From IMG/VR virus record IMGVR_UViG_3300021356_000050, positions 1 to 39,915 of that record: 39,915 nucleotides of DNA. One strand, 5' to 3'. Below are positions 35 through 24,105 of this stretch, one piece after another. Source of the stretch: a virus. The first letter of the stretch is position 1. Each line of letters opens with the position of its first letter. A model generated the notes under the pieces. That model was given only the letters and a program-made list of their open reading frames with translations. It did no database searches and was not told the DNA's origin. A program made the translations under genes and the position numbers.

Positions 35-1060
35 ATGGCAAAAAGAATTCTTATCACAGGTGGCGGTGGTTTTATCGCTCACCATTTAATTAATCAAATA
101 CTTATACGAACAGATTGGGATATTGTTACACTAGATCGTCTTGATTATAGTGGTAATCTCAATCGTCTGCATGATCTTCTTCAGGATAGAACACCAGCAG
201 AACGGAAACGCGTACGAACAATTTTCCATGATTTAAAAGCAGAAATTAATCCAATGCTCGAGGCAGACATTGGTCCAGTCAATATCGTCGCTCACCTCGC
301 AGCAGGTTCTCATGTTGATCGTTCGATTGAGCGTCCTATGGAATTTGTAATGGATAACGTTGTTGGTACATGTAATCTATTAGAATACGCTCGCCGACAA
401 GACAATTTAGAAAGGTTCTTATATTTTAGTACTGATGAAGTATTTGGACCAGCACCCGAAGGAGTAAAATACGATGAGTATGATCGTTATAATTCAACTA
501 ATCCGTATTCTGCGTCAAAAGCGGGTGGTGAAGAACTCGCTGTAGCATTTCAAAATACTTATGGTATGCCGATTTATATCACGCATACTATGAACGTGTT
601 TGGACAACGTCAACATCCCGAAAAATTTATTCCGATGACAATCCGTAATGTTCGCGATGGTGGAACTGTTACAATTCATTCTGATTCTACTAAAACAATT
701 CCAGGTTCTCGTCATTATATTCACGCTGAAGACGTAGCTGATGCTACACTCTTTTTATTAGAGAATGATCGTACATTGGATATGACAAATAACACAGGCA
801 TTAAATGCCCGAAATTTAACATCTGCGGTGCAACTGAATTAAATAATCTCGAACTAGCTCAAATGATTGCAGATGCTCAAGGTAAGGAACTTAAATATGA
901 ATTTATGGATTTCCATAGCAGCCGTCCTGGTCATGATCTCCGTTACGCTTTATCAGGTGAACGCATGGCAAATATGGGATGGACTCCAAAACCTGTCGAA
1001 GATCGAATCGCTGAAGTAGTACATTGGACATTGAACAACACAAGGTGGCTTGATATATGA
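35..1060 (+). CDS. dTDP-glucose 4,6-dehydratase-like SDR (RmlB family)
   Basis: An extended short-chain dehydrogenase of 341 aa, close to the usual RmlB length. Seen: the Rossmann motif GGGGFIAHH (residues 9-17), the RmlB signature STDEVFG (132-138, with the catalytic Thr-Asp-Glu) and the Tyr-x3-Lys pair YSASK (158-162). By family knowledge it would use NAD to oxidise C4 of a nucleotide hexose, dehydrate it and give a 4-keto-6-deoxy sugar in the cytoplasm. The start ATG follows AAGGAG at a good distance. It overlaps the next gene by 4 bases (ATGA), and a run of sugar genes follows, so it probably supplies a modified sugar for glycan synthesis. A UDP-GlcNAc or GDP-mannose dehydratase is possible, but the TDE triad favours the RmlB branch. 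Confidence 0.85.
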   Translation: MAKRILITGGGGFIAHHLINQILIRTDWDIVTLDRLDYSGNLNRLHDLLQDRTPAERKRVRTIFHDLKAEINPMLEADIGPVNIVAHLAAGSHVDRSIERPMEFVMDNVVGTCNLLEYARRQDNLERFLYFSTDEVFGPAPEGVKYDEYDRYNSTNPYSASKAGGEELAVAFQNTYGMPIYITHTMNVFGQRQHPEKFIPMTIRNVRDGGTVTIHSDSTKTIPGSRHYIHAEDVADATLFLLENDRTLDMTNNTGIKCPKFNICGATELNNLELAQMIADAQGKELKYEFMDFHSSRPGHDLRYALSGERMANMGWTPKPVEDRIAEVVHWTLNNTRWLDI

Positions 1061-1623
1061 CATGGGAAGAATACATTCGACGAGAGTATGAGAAATCGCT
1101 CTACGCCGAAAGATCTGACATTAAAGAACACTTGCCAATTCTCGCAAGTTTAGCGTTAGAGTGCGATAGTGTTACTGAAATGGGAAGTCGTTTTGGTGAT
1201 AGTACTCGAGCGTTCTTAACTACTCCTGCGAAGTTTACAGCTTATGACTTAGAGCTTGTAGATTCTGTGAATGAACTTTTCTTGAAAGCAAAAGAAGCAG
1301 GTAAAGATGTAGCATATATAAAAGCTGATACTCGAGATCTTGAGATTGAAGAAACCGACATGTTGTTTATTGATACGTGGCACAGTGGTGATCAACTTCG
1401 TCAAGAACTTAAGCTACACGGCAACAAAGCTCGTAAGTATCTTGCTTTTCATGATACACAAACATATGGGCTAATGGATGAAAGCTGGGACAAACAACGT
1501 AAGATTTATCCGGGCGAAGGTTTACTTCCTGCGATTATTGACTTTTTAATTAAGAACCCGCACTGGCGTTTTAAAATGCATAGAACAAATAATAATGGAT
1601 TGACTGTTTTAGAAAGAGGATAA
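1057..1623 (+). CDS. SAM-dependent methyltransferase-like protein
   Basis: A 188 aa protein with a class I Rossmann layout. TEMGSRFGDSTRAFL (about 40-54) resembles motif I, which binds S-adenosylmethionine. The acidic strand AYDLEL (62-67) follows, then LFIDTWHSGDQL (103-114), like the central beta strand of Methyltransf_24-type proteins. FHDTQTYG (131-138) is typical of the cephalosporin-hydroxylase-like subgroup. The gene is translationally coupled to the RmlB-like gene upstream and lies 1 base before the GT17 gene, so a role in trimming or methylating a sugar is inferred. The substrate cannot be read from the sequence. Confidence 0.6.
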   Translation: MTWEEYIRREYEKSLYAERSDIKEHLPILASLALECDSVTEMGSRFGDSTRAFLTTPAKFTAYDLELVDSVNELFLKAKEAGKDVAYIKADTRDLEIEETDMLFIDTWHSGDQLRQELKLHGNKARKYLAFHDTQTYGLMDESWDKQRKIYPGEGLLPAIIDFLIKNPHWRFKMHRTNNNGLTVLERG

Positions 1624-1624
1624 C

Positions 1625-3205
1625 ATGGCACAGATTATTGATTGCTTTCCATTTTTTGCACCTTACAATGAAGAACTATTATGGTTACGTGTAAATCTTT
1701 TAAAAGATCACGTAGATAAGTTTATTATTGTTGAGAGTAATAAGACTCATAGTGGATTGCCCGTTGAACGTAAGTTTGAAGAGATTGCACGAAAGCAAGG
1801 TCTTCCAATGGAAAAAATCATTTATGTTCCTCATGATATTCCTGATGTTGAAGATCTCGAGATTCGTCCTATTGATAAAAAGAACGCAGGACCTAACTTC
1901 AGAAATGAAGAAAGTATCCAAGCTCGAGCACGAGAACGTATGCAAAAAGATGCGGTGATGAGTGTGCTTGATCAATTTGAAGATGATGACGTCTTTATCT
2001 ATGGTGATATCGATGAAATCATTAATCCTAAAAATATTCAATGGTGTGCTAATATGGCACGTGCTCATCGAAATATTATCTTAAAGATTCCTCTTGTTTA
2101 TCTTCAAGGTCGTGCCGATTTACGTATTCATCATCGAGATAATAAACCCGTTGTTTGGTGGCGTGCAATGTTCTTTGTAACAAAAGAGCAACTTCGAGAA
2201 TTTACAATTAATAATATTCGCTGTGGCTACATTCCTATCAAAACAACTTGGCCTGCACAAAACGGTAAAGTAGTACAAGACATGGGTTGGCATTTCTCTT
2301 GGATGGGAAATAATGAACAAAGAAAGATTAAAGCAGATTCTTTTGCGCATGCTCATGATCAATTCGAGTGGATGGCTGAAGGTGAAGGATATAACTCAGA
2401 AGCTTATCAAGCTTTTGTGAATACAACTACTCCTGCAGAAGGAAAGGTTGCACCTGATGGTAATGAAGATCATATTCTTCGAAGATATCCTTTATCTGAA
2501 TTACCACAACTAATATTTGAAAATCAAGAAATCAAAGACTTCTTATTACCAGAAACAAAACTCGCAAATGATTTCGCATTTAATGACTGTGGTTGTTATT
2601 GGTGTAAAACACTTGAGTGGCCGTTGATGTACGATCTCGATGGAAAGAAAACTTGGTTTGAAGTACCTCGTAGTTGTTCCGTCACAATTAAAGAAAGTTT
2701 TCCTAAACGTAAACAAGTGATGAGATCTACAGAAGAGTATGAAGAAGCAATTGAGAATCAAAAGCCAGTCGTCGTCTTTACAGATCCTGTTGAACGCTTC
2801 TTATCTTGTATGAATGTTTATCTAGTCAAAGGACAAAGATATTACGACTACGGTAAAGACATTTTTAAATCATTTGGTGTAGATATTGAAGAATGCACGA
2901 TAAAAGAAAAAGTCGATTACTTCTTTCGACATCTTCACAAGATTACAGATCAGCATCAGGTACACCACTTCCATCCTCAATGTAGATTTGTAGATACACA
3001 AAACTTTTCTGAATTCACAATCGTAACAAAACAAGAAGTGAGTACGTTCTTTAAAACAGAGAAACATTTGAATACGACAAAATACGAAATCACTCCTCGC
3101 GAGTTAAGTCGTGATCAAAAGGAATTCATAAAGAAAATTTATAAGAGCGATTACGACTTCTATAAAAAATATAGTGGTGGTGATGGTAAAAAGAATAAAA
3201 CGTGA
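1625..3205 (+). CDS. GT17 glycosyltransferase fused to a sulfotransferase-like domain
   Basis: This 526 aa protein appears to hold two enzymes. Residues 1 to about 300 match glycosyltransferase family 17 (the GlcNAc-transferase III type): CFPFFAPYNEELLWLR at the N-terminus, the metal-binding acidic motif GDIDEI (127-132) and GWHFSWMG (221-228). Residues about 320-515 look like a Sulfotransfer_2-type domain. WFEVPRSCSVTI (344-355) sits where the 5'-phosphosulfate loop (usually IPKTGGTSI) belongs. VVVFTDPVERFLSC (382-395) matches the 3'-phosphate site with its R-x-P-x-E-R-F pattern, the first Arg being replaced here, and HFHPQ (448-452) is a typical late motif. Inference: one protein adds a GlcNAc-like sugar and sulfates a glycan. 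The P-loop Lys-Thr is replaced by Arg-Ser, so activity is uncertain. A C-terminal lysine-rich tail ends the protein. Confidence 0.7.
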   Translation: MAQIIDCFPFFAPYNEELLWLRVNLLKDHVDKFIIVESNKTHSGLPVERKFEEIARKQGLPMEKIIYVPHDIPDVEDLEIRPIDKKNAGPNFRNEESIQARARERMQKDAVMSVLDQFEDDDVFIYGDIDEIINPKNIQWCANMARAHRNIILKIPLVYLQGRADLRIHHRDNKPVVWWRAMFFVTKEQLREFTINNIRCGYIPIKTTWPAQNGKVVQDMGWHFSWMGNNEQRKIKADSFAHAHDQFEWMAEGEGYNSEAYQAFVNTTTPAEGKVAPDGNEDHILRRYPLSELPQLIFENQEIKDFLLPETKLANDFAFNDCGCYWCKTLEWPLMYDLDGKKTWFEVPRSCSVTIKESFPKRKQVMRSTEEYEEAIENQKPVVVFTDPVERFLSCMNVYLVKGQRYYDYGKDIFKSFGVDIEECTIKEKVDYFFRHLHKITDQHQVHHFHPQCRFVDTQNFSEFTIVTKQEVSTFFKTEKHLNTTKYEITPRELSRDQKEFIKKIYKSDYDFYKKYSGGDGKKNKT

Positions 3206-4539: not shown

Positions 4540-4744
4540 GTTTCTTTCTTTTGTTCAGATGCAAATGTCAGCCGAAGACATTCTTCGTGCTCACGGCAAC
4601 GAAAGCAAACAAACAAAGCTTGCCTTTGAACAAGCAAATCAATTAAAACGAGAAGTCTTAAATCGTATCGACGAGCTCGAACATGAAATCAATTTGAAAG
4701 AAGAACCTAATCAAAAAAACTTGAATAGGATTATTAACGAATGA
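4523..4744 (+). CDS. hypothetical 73 aa helical protein
   Basis: Not recognised. I place the start at ATG 4523, preceded by GGAGAG, rather than at an upstream ATG (4418) deep inside the previous gene. It then overlaps that gene by 17 bases. The product is mostly charged alpha helix (about residues 20-60), probably a short coiled coil. Its stop overlaps the start of the sugar dehydrogenase by 4 bases (ATGA). Confidence 0.65.
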   Translation: MSLKSKFLSFVQMQMSAEDILRAHGNESKQTKLAFEQANQLKREVLNRIDELEHEINLKEEPNQKNLNRIINE

Positions 4745-5502
4745 ACATCTTAATCGCAGGATATGGATTTGTAGGAAAAGCTCATGCAATTGCTTTAGAA
4801 CGAGATCACAACGTAAGTGTACATGATCCTGCACAAGGCTATGAAGCCGACTACGACAAAGCTGAAGCAGTCATCTGTTGCGTAAGTACTCCAATGTTAA
4901 AAAATGGACCTACAAAAGGAGCATGCGACATCGGCAACGTAGTTGATGTAGTAATGAAAACTCCTGAAGGTATTCCGATCTTAATCAAGAGTACTATTAG
5001 TCTTGAAGGATGGCGAGCGATTTGCGAACTTTATCCTGAACGAGAAATTACTTTTTCTCCCGAGTATCTGCGCGCAGCAAGTGCGATGGAAGATTTTCGA
5101 GAACAGACACTCGTAAAGATTGGTGGAGGAGATACTCAATTCTGGAAGACACTGCTGAATCTGAGTTTAAAAGTAGATGTAAAGATTGAAAATCCAGAAG
5201 AACTAATCCTCACGAAATATTTCATAAATAGTTTTCTAGCGACCAAGGTTGCGTTCTTTAATCAGATTTATGATCTGTGTAAAGCAGCTGGCGTTCGACC
5301 CGAGAGCGTAATCGAACACGTCTCTGCTGACGAGCGAATTGGTACAAGTCATACGACTGTTACACCTGAGCGAGGTTTTGGAGGGCATTGCTTTCCTAAA
5401 GATACATCTGCTCTAATGGCAACAGGCAAAAGAGTATTTAATGACTTAACAATTCTAGGTGAAGCGATAGAATATAATCGAAAGATAAGGAGCGAGAAAT
5501 GA
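4741..5502 (+). CDS. UDP-glucose/GDP-mannose dehydrogenase family protein, short form
   Basis: A nucleotide-sugar 6-dehydrogenase relative. Seen: the NAD-binding motif GYGFVGKAHA (7-16), CVSTPM (47-52), PEYLR (107-111), KYFINSFLATKVAFFNQ (159-175, with the family's Lys and Asn) and the active-site motif GFGGHCFPKD (212-221) with the catalytic Cys at 217. Such enzymes oxidise a UDP- or GDP-hexose to the uronic acid in two NAD-dependent steps. At 253 aa it is far shorter than the usual 390-430 aa: it stops soon after the catalytic Cys and lacks the C-terminal domain that helps bind the nucleotide. No frameshift is evident, because the next gene starts at the overlapping ATGA. Confidence 0.8.
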   Translation: MNILIAGYGFVGKAHAIALERDHNVSVHDPAQGYEADYDKAEAVICCVSTPMLKNGPTKGACDIGNVVDVVMKTPEGIPILIKSTISLEGWRAICELYPEREITFSPEYLRAASAMEDFREQTLVKIGGGDTQFWKTLLNLSLKVDVKIENPEELILTKYFINSFLATKVAFFNQIYDLCKAAGVRPESVIEHVSADERIGTSHTTVTPERGFGGHCFPKDTSALMATGKRVFNDLTILGEAIEYNRKIRSEK

Positions 5503-7245: not shown

Positions 7246-7964
7246 ACAAATACATTTTTGATGTTGATGGAACTCTAACTCCGAGTAGAGGAAAGATTGA
7301 TCCCGATTTTCATGATTGGTTTTTAGATTTTTGTAAAAACAATCACGTTTTTCTTGTAACAGGAAGTGATTATCCTAAGACTCTCGAGCAGTTGGGTGAA
7401 GAAATTTGTTATCATGTAAAACGTGTTTATAATTGCAGTGGAAGTGACGTGTGGATGCAAGGAAAAAACATTCACACAAACAAATGGGAAATCGACGACT
7501 TTACTTATGAATGGCTTGAAAGTAAACTTGAGTCAAGTGATTTCGAGATTCGAACAGGTAATCATATCGAAGAAAGACCCGGTATGGTGAATTTTAGTGT
7601 AGTTGGTAGAAACGCAACAAAAGAAGAACGCGCAGCTTATGTCGAATATGACACAAAATTCAAAGAACGAGAAACAATTGCTCGAGAATTTAACTACATT
7701 TTTGGTGAAGCCTCTGCTCAACTTCGTGCAGTTGTAGGTGGCGAAACAGGAATTGACATATTTCCAATTGGTGCAGATAAATCTCAAATTATTGAAGAGT
7801 TTAGTCCTCGCACCGATATTATCTTTTTTGGTGATCGCATAGATCCTCACGGTAACGATTGGCCTCTTGCTGTAGTCAATACCGAAGGAACAAATCATCA
7901 CGTACGAGATTGGAAACATACTTGGGAAATATTAAAAGACTATGCGAATACTCGGAATCAGTGA
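7242..7964 (+). CDS. eukaryotic-type phosphomannomutase (HAD family)
   Basis: A 240 aa HAD-superfamily protein with the PMM1/PMM2-type motif set rather than the bacterial ManB fold. YIFDVDGTLTPSR (4-16) carries the two catalytic Asp residues (7 and 9). ERPGMVNFSVVGR (111-123) is the substrate-binding cap signature, GGETGIDIFPIGADKSQI (166-183) is the family hallmark and FFGDRIDPHGNDWPLA (195-210) holds the metal site. It would convert mannose-6-phosphate to mannose-1-phosphate, feeding GDP-mannose synthesis. It is slightly shorter than human PMM2 (246 aa). Coupled upstream to a 35 aa gene; its 3' end overlaps the carbamoyltransferase start by 23 bases. Confidence 0.85.
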   Translation: MNKYIFDVDGTLTPSRGKIDPDFHDWFLDFCKNNHVFLVTGSDYPKTLEQLGEEICYHVKRVYNCSGSDVWMQGKNIHTNKWEIDDFTYEWLESKLESSDFEIRTGNHIEERPGMVNFSVVGRNATKEERAAYVEYDTKFKERETIAREFNYIFGEASAQLRAVVGGETGIDIFPIGADKSQIIEEFSPRTDIIFFGDRIDPHGNDWPLAVVNTEGTNHHVRDWKHTWEILKDYANTRNQ

Positions 7965-9315
7965 AGGCTTTCATGACGCCGGCGCAACACTTATCGAAAA
8001 TGGAAACATCTTAAGCGCCACTCACTCGGAAAGATTTTCTCGTAAAAAGAACGATCGTTGGCTTCATCCAAATCAAATGGTTGAAGCTGATGTTGTTGCG
8101 TATTTTGAAAAGCCTTGGTTAAAAAGAACAAGACAACTCTACGCAGGACAAGGTTGGAAACGTTTTCGTTCAAATTACGACTGGTCCTTTTATCATCACG
8201 AATCTCACGCCGCGGCTGGCTTTTACACATCAAAATTTGAAGAATGTAATGTTCTCGTCATTGACTCGATTGGTGAATGGGATACAGTTTCTGTTTGGCG
8301 TGCTTGGGAAGACAAAGGTTTTGCAGGTGAATCTACACCTAGAATGAAAAAGATTAAGAGTTGGAAGTATCCTTAATCGATTGGATTATTTTATTCAGCA
8401 ATTACAAAAGCAATAGGCTTAAAGCCGAACGAAGACGAATACATTACAATGGGTATGGCTGCATATGGCGAACCTCTTTATTATGATAAGATGATGGATA
8501 TGTTAGAGTATGAATATTGTCATAAAGGTTTAGACCATCGTCCCGAATTAAAGCTCTGGAAAAAAGAAGACATCGCAGCTTCAGCTCAACTCGCGGTCGA
8601 GAAACGAGTAATCGATATCGTAATGAAATACTGCAAACACAAAAATCTTGTGTTTATGGGCGGTGTTGCTTTAAACTGTGTATTGAATTCAAAGATCGCT
8701 CAATTAGGAAAAAACATGTGGATCATGCCGAATCCCGGCGATTGTGGTTCTTCTCTTGGTGCCGCTGCTTTAGCATATGGAAAGAAGCTTAATTGGATTG
8801 ATCCTTATCTCGGCACTAATATAGAAAGGCAAATCAATGTTAAGAAAGTGGTTCAACATCTGTATGATCATAGTTATTGCGGTGTTGCAAACGGCCGTGC
8901 TGAGTTTGGCCCTCGTGCCCTTGGCAATCGTAGCCTTCTTGCTGATGCTCGACGACCTATTAAAGATACTGTTAACAAAATTAAACGTAGACAAGGATTT
9001 CGACCCTTTGGTCCTGCGATCATGGAAGAATATGCTGATCAATATTTCGACGGACCGATGAACGAATATATGCAATTTGTAGCGAAAGCAAATCATCCTT
9101 TTGATTCTGTTACTCACGTTGATGGTACTGCTCGTGTACAAGTTGTTCGAAAAGATTGTAACTCAATTCTTCGCAAAATCTTAGAAGAATGGTATGAAAA
9201 AACGCGTTTTCCTATGTTGTTAAATACTAGTTTGAATATTAAAGGACAACCAATGGTTGATACTTGGCAAGACGCAAGAAACTTTATGAAGGAATACAAT
9301 GTCAAAGTCTTCTAA
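7942..9315 (+). pseudogene. NodU/TobZ-like carbamoyltransferase interrupted by one in-frame TAA
   Basis: The reading frame from ATG 7942 shows carbamoyltransferase features: GISEGFHDAGATLIENG and HSERFSRKKND at the N-terminus, HHESHAAAGF (the His-x3-His-x2-A metal motif) and VLVIDSIGEWDT. It stops at TAA 8374-8376 after KSWKYP. With no shift of frame it continues as SIGLFYSAITKAIGLKPNED, then GMAAYGEP, GGVALNC and GRAEFGPRALGNRSLLADAR, all conserved in the family, and ends at 9315. The stop falls where the family usually has His, Asn or Gln in a YP-x-S-x-G-L-x-YS motif, so a single CAA-to-TAA change explains it. No ribosome site precedes the internal ATG at 8449. If whole, it would O-carbamoylate a sugar or small molecule. 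Confidence 0.8.
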
Positions 9316-23282: not shown

Positions 23283-23653
23283 TGCTTTTTAAAAACTATA
23301 TATTGATGACGCTGGTCCATGTGGCCGGCGTCTACCTCTATCTTGAGCTCGGTTCTTTGGAACTATTGTTTCCAAGTTTCATCATTTTAAGCTGGCACTT
23401 CATGATTTTTGTTATTGGTGTTGGTGTATTAATGAGTCCTGAGACTACGATAGAGCTCGATGAAAAAGAATACTCATACCAATCTGACTACTCTGCTCGA
23501 CTTGCACTTCAAGCAGCAGCGGCGTTAGTTGCGTATGTTTTGTATACAAATGGGTTTGTAATTATTGCGGGTGCTCTTTGGCTTCAAGCAATCATTACAG
23601 CAGTCTCTTGTTTAATCTCAATTTATATTAAAAGTGGAGCTAAAAATACATGA
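23282..23653 (+). CDS. polytopic membrane protein, unknown function
   Basis: A 123 aa protein with about four hydrophobic stretches (roughly 5-25, 29-52, 75-92 and 94-117) and an acidic loop near residues 55-70 (TTIELDEKEYSYQS). No family recognised. Coupled to DUF932 by TAATG and to the kinase by an ATGA overlap. Confidence 0.7.
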   Translation: MLFKNYILMTLVHVAGVYLYLELGSLELLFPSFIILSWHFMIFVIGVGVLMSPETTIELDEKEYSYQSDYSARLALQAAAALVAYVLYTNGFVIIAGALWLQAIITAVSCLISIYIKSGAKNT

Positions 23654-24105
23654 AAATTTTAATATTTGGATTGCCAGGCGCCGGAAAGACTTGGCTAGCT
23701 GAAAGACTTCAAAAACATCTCGAATGCGCTTGGTTTAATGCAGACGAAGTTCGTAAAATGGCTAACGACTGGGAGTTCGGTGATGAAGCTCGTATTCGTC
23801 AGGCAAGACGTATGCGCAATATCGCAGATTATGAAAAAGGTTGTGGACGGCATGTAATTTGCGACTTTGTTTGTCCTACAGAACATACTCGTTATATCTT
23901 TGAATCCGATTGCACGATCTGGGTAGATACTATTGAAGAAGGTCGATTTGAAGATACAAATAAGATGTTCGAGAAACCAAAAAAGCCTACAGATTTTCAT
24001 ATTACAGAACACTTAAATGATAAGCAGATTGAAGATCTAGCTTGGGAAATTAAAGAGTTTATGGAAGATCAAAATTACGTAGAACAACTTTCTTTTCAGA
24101 TGTGA
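23650..24105 (+). CDS. cysC: adenylylsulfate (APS) kinase-like protein
   Basis: A 151 aa P-loop kinase. Walker A is FGLPGAGKTWLAERL (6-20). CAWFNADEVRKM matches the family's substrate-binding D-x-V-R (usually DGDNVR). RNIADYEKGCGRHVICDFVCPTEHTR corresponds to the region that ends in PxxxxR of APS kinases, and IWVDTIEEGRFEDTNKMFEKP resembles the V-D-x-P-x-E-x-C-E...G-L-Y lid. The family phosphorylates adenosine 5'-phosphosulfate to PAPS. A short form (about 150 aa against 180-200) known in phages. PAPS is the donor for the sulfotransferase-like domain encoded at 1625. Other small P-loop kinases are possible. Confidence 0.65.
   Translation: MKILIFGLPGAGKTWLAERLQKHLECAWFNADEVRKMANDWEFGDEARIRQARRMRNIADYEKGCGRHVICDFVCPTEHTRYIFESDCTIWVDTIEEGRFEDTNKMFEKPKKPTDFHITEHLNDKQIEDLAWEIKEFMEDQNYVEQLSFQM

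Follow-up and report, generated by a model that had tools for sequence, protein, structure and literature searches.

The gene at positions 1,625 to 3,205 (plus strand) encodes a protein of 526 residues, read from an ATG start, in which a GT17 glycosyltransferase domain is joined in one frame to a domain that is assigned here to the sulfotransferase superfamily as a divergent member. The product is a new domain architecture built from known enzyme kinds; GT17 enzymes and sulfotransferases are both already known in phages. The reading preferred here, with a probability of about two in three (0.68), is a bifunctional glycan-tailoring enzyme whose GT17 domain would add a sugar and whose sulfotransferase module would sulfate the same or a neighbouring glycan.

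The window, defined here as the whole stretch of 39,915 nucleotides that was analysed, is a fragment of a T4-like myovirus with portal, sheath, terminase, and major head protein. The source phage is marine, and its major head protein is closest, among isolates, to that of Sinorhizobium phage phiM12 (68%).

The fusion gene and its GT17 half

The AlphaFold model of the full-length fusion protein has a pTM of 0.86 and a pLDDT of 91. The GT17 half is defined as residues 1-310 (positions 1,625 to 2,554, plus strand), and the sulfotransferase-superfamily domain as residues ~312-518 (positions 2,558 to 3,178, plus strand).

Glyco_transf_17 (PF04724) is the only significant Pfam match of the fusion protein. 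It covers residues 17-145 with an E-value of 1.2e-9 and 38.2 bits against a cut-off of 26. The DxD motif for metal and nucleotide-sugar binding reads D-I-D-E and lies at residues 128-131 (positions 2,006 to 2,017, plus strand). Across 45 homologous rows, conservation reaches 90% or more at D128, D130, E131, G221, W222, and H223, and likewise at the W-M-G residues of this half. A Foldseek search of the PDB with the full-length model gave matches to GT-A enzymes at E-values down to 1.6e-6, among them chondroitin synthases and K4 chondroitin polymerase. By profile, DxD motif, and GT-A fold, the N-terminal half is a GT17 family member. A preliminary description, made from the letters of the sequence, had placed a GT17 domain in this frame by GDIDEI (residues 127-132) and GWHFSWMG (residues 221-228), and the match above the PF04724 cut-off bears this out. 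The activity of characterised eukaryotic GT17 members is beta-1,4-GlcNAc transfer.

The closest comparison for this half is the GT17 protein of cyanophage RN05-S, which shares the Pfam GT17 match, the DxD motif, and the GT-A fold. Its gene likewise comes directly after epimerase-family and methyltransferase genes (FkbM in RN05-S) in a glycan cluster. The RN05-S protein differs in consisting of GT17 only, in its length of about 290 residues, and in having 22% identity to the fusion protein. Elsewhere in phages, GT17 was seen joined to a methyltransferase, to a 2OG-oxygenase-like domain (recognised by eye), to a second GT17, or to other domains (L007:3146-4630, L013:2775-4592, L016, L022, L034, and L036). 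GT17 gives the impression of a hub for tailoring enzymes in phages.

Homology searches with the C-terminal half alone found 74 viral contigs. The fusion is present in 63 of these, a standalone gene in 10, and a copy cut at the 5' end in one. Counted by distinct C-terminal sequence (n = 47), the numbers are 41, 5, and 1, respectively; these counts are safer, since the related contigs share part of their origin. The recurrence of the join in 63 contigs, with 41 different C-terminal sequences among them, rules out a frameshift or an assembly artefact as the source of the fusion. The fusion proposed in the preliminary description is thereby upheld, with fold and relatives in agreement.

Fold and motifs of the C-terminal domain

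The C-terminal domain was modelled with AlphaFold from a profile of 29 relatives, with a pLDDT of 87.7 and a pTM of 0.84. Foldseek gave 11 matches in BFVD at E ≤ 1e-3, the best at 1.2e-5 with a probability of 1.00, and the majority are annotated as sulfotransferases of cyanophages, uncultured phages, and giant viruses. The leading PDB matches are all sulfotransferases (a Schistosoma sulfotransferase, NDST1, heparan 3-O-sulfotransferase, and SULTs), but they are weak, with E-values of at least 0.067 and low TM-scores. As modelled, the domain has the sulfotransferase fold of the PAPS sulfotransferase superfamily, and not the unrelated fold that the preliminary description had named as counting against its proposal.

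An hhalign comparison with phage Sulfotransfer_2-type proteins, mostly taken from the same phage group, reached 89% probability across the 3' loop and the C-terminus, compared with 0.1% for an unrelated control and only 46% for a subset of six of those sulfotransferases. Sulfotransfer_2 was matched by 7 of the 29 domain members, with a best E-value of 5e-5; the E-values at which some relatives reach this model run from 5e-5 to 0.01. The fusion protein itself matches no sulfotransferase model significantly by sequence, PF03567 (Sulfotransfer_2; cut-off 22 bits) included, and a PDB sequence search with the domain profile returned chance matches only. Relative L086 scores 19.5 bits against PF03567 by hmmscan and 23.3 bits summed in frame; relatives checked as whole proteins score under the cut-off. 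Because the fusion protein is unmatched and the whole-protein scores of its relatives fall short, the C-terminal half is called here, from sequence and model together, a divergent sulfotransferase-superfamily member and not a Pfam Sulfotransfer_2 member. The sulfotransferase character claimed in the preliminary description is retained on the strength of fold and relatives; clean membership in Sulfotransfer_2 is not.

Pfam DUF7913, DUF1493, KilA-N, and HH_signal, and NCBIfam SroA, were rejected as chance or below-cut-off matches. For roseophage SIO1 gp5.1, single-sequence hhalign against the domain was uninformative; by eye, its loop VPKTATIAIEKAF is like EVPRSCSVTIKESF.

The motifs VPRSCSVTI (residues 347-355), TDPVERFLSC (residues 386-395), and HFHPQ (residues 448-452) occur in the translation in the order first described. 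The 5'-PSB, or P-loop, WFEVPRSCSVTIKE, spans residues 344-357 (positions 2,654 to 2,695, plus strand). In the AlphaFold model, VPRSCSV leads from strand 32-35 into helix 41-47 (domain numbering), so that the strand and the helix flank a basic residue and Ser/Thr, as expected of a 5'-PSB. The 3'-PSB-like loop, VVVFTDPVERFLSCMNVY, spans residues 382-399 (positions 2,768 to 2,821, plus strand) and is modelled as strand 71-74, TDP, and helix 77-89. It has Thr in place of the first Arg of the usual loop (R-D/N-P-x-x-R), a position filled throughout by Thr, Ser, or Ala; the preliminary description had named only the P-loop replacement. In the model, both loops sit where sulfotransferases have their 5'-PSB and 3'-PSB.

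In 24 aligned relatives, P37, R38, S39, S41, V42, T43, K45, and E46 of the domain are invariant, as are P77, R80, F81, and S83 of the 3' loop. Also invariant are H136, H137, F138, and Q141 of HHFHPQ (residues 447-452; positions 2,963 to 2,980, plus strand) and the three cysteines of C-x-C-x-W-C at the start of the domain (residues 322-327; positions 2,588 to 2,605, plus strand). CxCxxC, which is invariant, and HHFHPQ, which is nearly so, are candidates for a metal site. The patterns P-R-S-x-S-V-T-x-K-E, P-x-x-R-F-x-S, and HHF-x-x-Q persist down to 43-45% identity; their invariance in the 24 relatives, standalone homologues included, shows that these motifs are not due to chance. Some standalone homologues (L100, L199, and L200) read PRSGSVT.

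The change of the P-loop Lys to Arg is real and common to all 74 contigs. Human TPST1 and TPST2 read GGVPRSGTTLMRAML at the P-loop, and their VPRSGTT resembles VPRSCSV, with Arg for Lys in both. They differ in having a protein acceptor, and their overall sequence similarity to the domain is not detectable. The 3'-PSB of NDST1, LINPADRAYSWY, is without the first Arg, as is TDPVERFLS; INPADRAYS has Ile there. NDST1 is an active enzyme, and further residues take part in its binding of PAP (PMC10864358). It resembles the fusion protein in being a bifunctional glycan enzyme with a sulfotransferase domain (PMC10864358), but its partner domain is a deacetylase rather than a glycosyltransferase, and its 5'-PSB keeps the Lys (K614, PMC10864358). 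Judged by dN/dS, purifying selection acts on both halves: most values in each lie at 0.03-0.14, and the two that are higher come from pairs of almost identical sequences. Since Arg-Ser is natural in TPST1/2, the Arg is also missing in NDST1, and dN/dS is low, the comparison argues against reading the two loop substitutions as signs of decay. The suggestion that the domain is altered or inactive is left unsupported.

Phage Sulfotransfer_2 proteins (L106, L107, and the BFVD cyanophage entries) share with the domain the fold, the order of the PAPS loops, and a length of ~200 residues, and standalone PF03567 members occur in the same phage genomes. The two groups are separated by their loops, which read P-K and R-D/N-P in the phage Sulfotransfer_2 proteins and P-R and T/S-D-P in the fusion. 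Unlike these proteins, the fusion's domain has the CxCxxC and HHFHPQ motifs and scores under the PF03567 cut-off. Standalone Sulfotransfer_2 genes accompany the fusion or the standalone domain in L105, L106, L107, L108, L110, L111, L112, and L113, and a 221-kb contig carries two adjacent Sulfotransfer_2 genes in addition to the fusion.

Distribution and gene neighbourhood

The standalone gene takes two forms. The first starts at the domain (L093 and L100), and the second has ~40 extra N-terminal residues (L196, L199, and L200). One 170-kb phage contig carries GT17 and the sulfotransferase as separate standalone genes ~40 kb apart. With tblastn, no true homologue of the C-terminal domain was found among isolated phages, and the sulfotransferase half is absent from every GT17 match in the isolated-phage collection. 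The open literature searched yielded neither the GT17-sulfotransferase architecture nor any other fusion of a glycosyltransferase to a sulfotransferase.

Outside viral contigs, homologues were found at three loci only, all in one Rhodobacteraceae bin. These loci are probably binned phage DNA, because the two that were checked share synteny with the phage copies, and the third has exactly the sequence of the copy on a viral contig. The bin is weak evidence only as a hint of the host. Upstream of the standalone sulfotransferase of L093, an open frame (L093:6336-7538) resembles, by eye, 5-aminolevulinate synthase; such a gene would be a hint that the host is an alphaproteobacterium.

The cluster begins with an RmlB-like NDP-sugar 4,6-dehydratase/epimerase gene at positions 35 to 1,060 (plus strand; Pfam Epimerase, 2.4e-47). 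Its best NCBIfam match is dTDP-glucose 4,6-dehydratase at 2.8e-71, under the cut-off of that model. The dehydratase is found upstream, at 70-94% identity, in almost every relative with a contig that extends to this point. The next gene, at positions 1,057 to 1,623 (plus strand), encodes a small class-I methyltransferase-like protein of 188 residues with a weak Methyltransf_24 match. It overlaps the preceding gene and ends one base before the start codon of the fusion gene. A homologue of this methyltransferase is joined to GT17 in L007-L009, and that of L007 matches Methyltransf_24 at 1.8e-4. The order of dehydratase, methyltransferase-like gene, and fusion gene is kept in most relatives with contig coverage. 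The fusion gene directly follows the dehydratase in L078, and the standalone sulfotransferase does so in L100.

Sugar genes continue downstream, with a nucleotide-sugar dehydrogenase, a nucleotidyltransferase, a carbamoyltransferase, and a group-1 (GT4-type) glycosyltransferase. The dehydrogenase (positions 4,741 to 5,502, plus strand) has 253 residues compared with the usual ~410 and is conserved in relatives at 51-58% identity. The carbamoyltransferase is of the Nol/NodU type and extends over two ORFs (positions 7,942 to 8,376 and 8,449 to 9,315, plus strand); both pieces are present in L065, L067, L069, and L104.

A P-loop kinase of 151 residues is encoded at positions 23,650 to 24,105 (plus strand) and matches APS_kinase (PF01583) above the cut-off. 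It is also present in six related contigs. As a phage source of PAPS it is a possible lead only, because it is short, has an equally good match to AAA_18, and lies far under the cut-offs of the NCBIfam APS kinase models. It resembles other small kinases just as closely and is also seen in Stenotrophomonas phages, there without sulfur context.

Proposed function and alternatives

In the proposed mechanism, the GT17 domain would transfer a sugar from a nucleotide-sugar donor to a glycan acceptor, and the C-terminal domain would transfer sulfate from host PAPS to that glycan or to one next to it. A donor sugar is probably supplied or altered by the upstream dehydratase-like enzyme, and the small methyltransferase-like protein would add a third modification. 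The product would probably be a sulfated, methylated glycan on the envelope of the infected cell or on the virion. A glycan on the envelope might block superinfection, or resist grazers or enzymes. Judged from sequence and model, the fusion protein is probably catalytically active; its two domains may act on different molecules.

It is unlikely that the domain has kept the sulfotransferase fold without catalysis and serves GT17 as a scaffold or as a module that binds glycans or nucleotides. The loss of both the usual P-loop Lys and the first 3'-loop Arg, and the divergence from all curated sulfotransferase models, would suit such a role. Both substitutions are, however, present in known sulfotransferases, R-S-x-S-V-T and the Arg and Ser of the 3' loop do not vary even in the most distant relatives compared (43-45% identity), and standalone genes with the same motifs are unexpected for a mere accessory of GT17. 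Those standalone copies, which suggest that the domain can work without GT17, would also fit an active sulfotransferase with another acceptor (protein tyrosine, lipid, or small molecule) that the fusion merely co-expresses or co-localises with the glycosyltransferase, as would the Arg-type P-loop like that of tyrosylprotein sulfotransferases. This explanation is rated as more doubtful still, as the position of the L100 standalone gene directly after a sugar dehydratase and the repeated joining of GT17 to other tailoring enzymes in related phages both point to glycan modification.

Very improbable is a different P-loop fold, such as that of a kinase, with a superficial likeness to sulfotransferases. 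Strand-loop-helix P-loops are common to kinases and sulfotransferases, and the PDB E-values are weak, but the Walker sequence GxxGxGK[ST] is absent, the P-x-x-R-x-x-S of a 3'-PSB is present, and the leading PDB and BFVD matches are to sulfotransferases, not kinases.

For the bifunctional glycan-tailoring enzyme, the recurrence of the same join in dozens of related phage genomes suggests that such phages add sulfate to a surface sugar while they infect the cell. Sulfotransferase genes have been reported in marine phages (PMC10580990), and their function "remains unclear" according to one recent paper (PMC10580990). The conserved join to a glycosyltransferase ties one phage sulfotransferase domain directly to glycan modification, and it offers a single gene for expression and assay with defined donors. 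If the enzyme is active, it would mean that sulfated sugars are put in place by phages, with possible effects on receptor masking, superinfection, or virion surface charge in seawater. The chances are even that the fusion represents a phage-specific family of single-chain enzymes, with a TPST-like Arg P-loop and an NDST-like 3' loop, that add and sulfate a sugar on the envelope or virion; such a family would give phage sulfotransferases a concrete glycan role.

One of the BFVD matches is a giant-virus protein of 429 residues that bears the annotation glycosyltransferase family 25. Given this match, other combinations of glycosyltransferase and sulfotransferase may exist.
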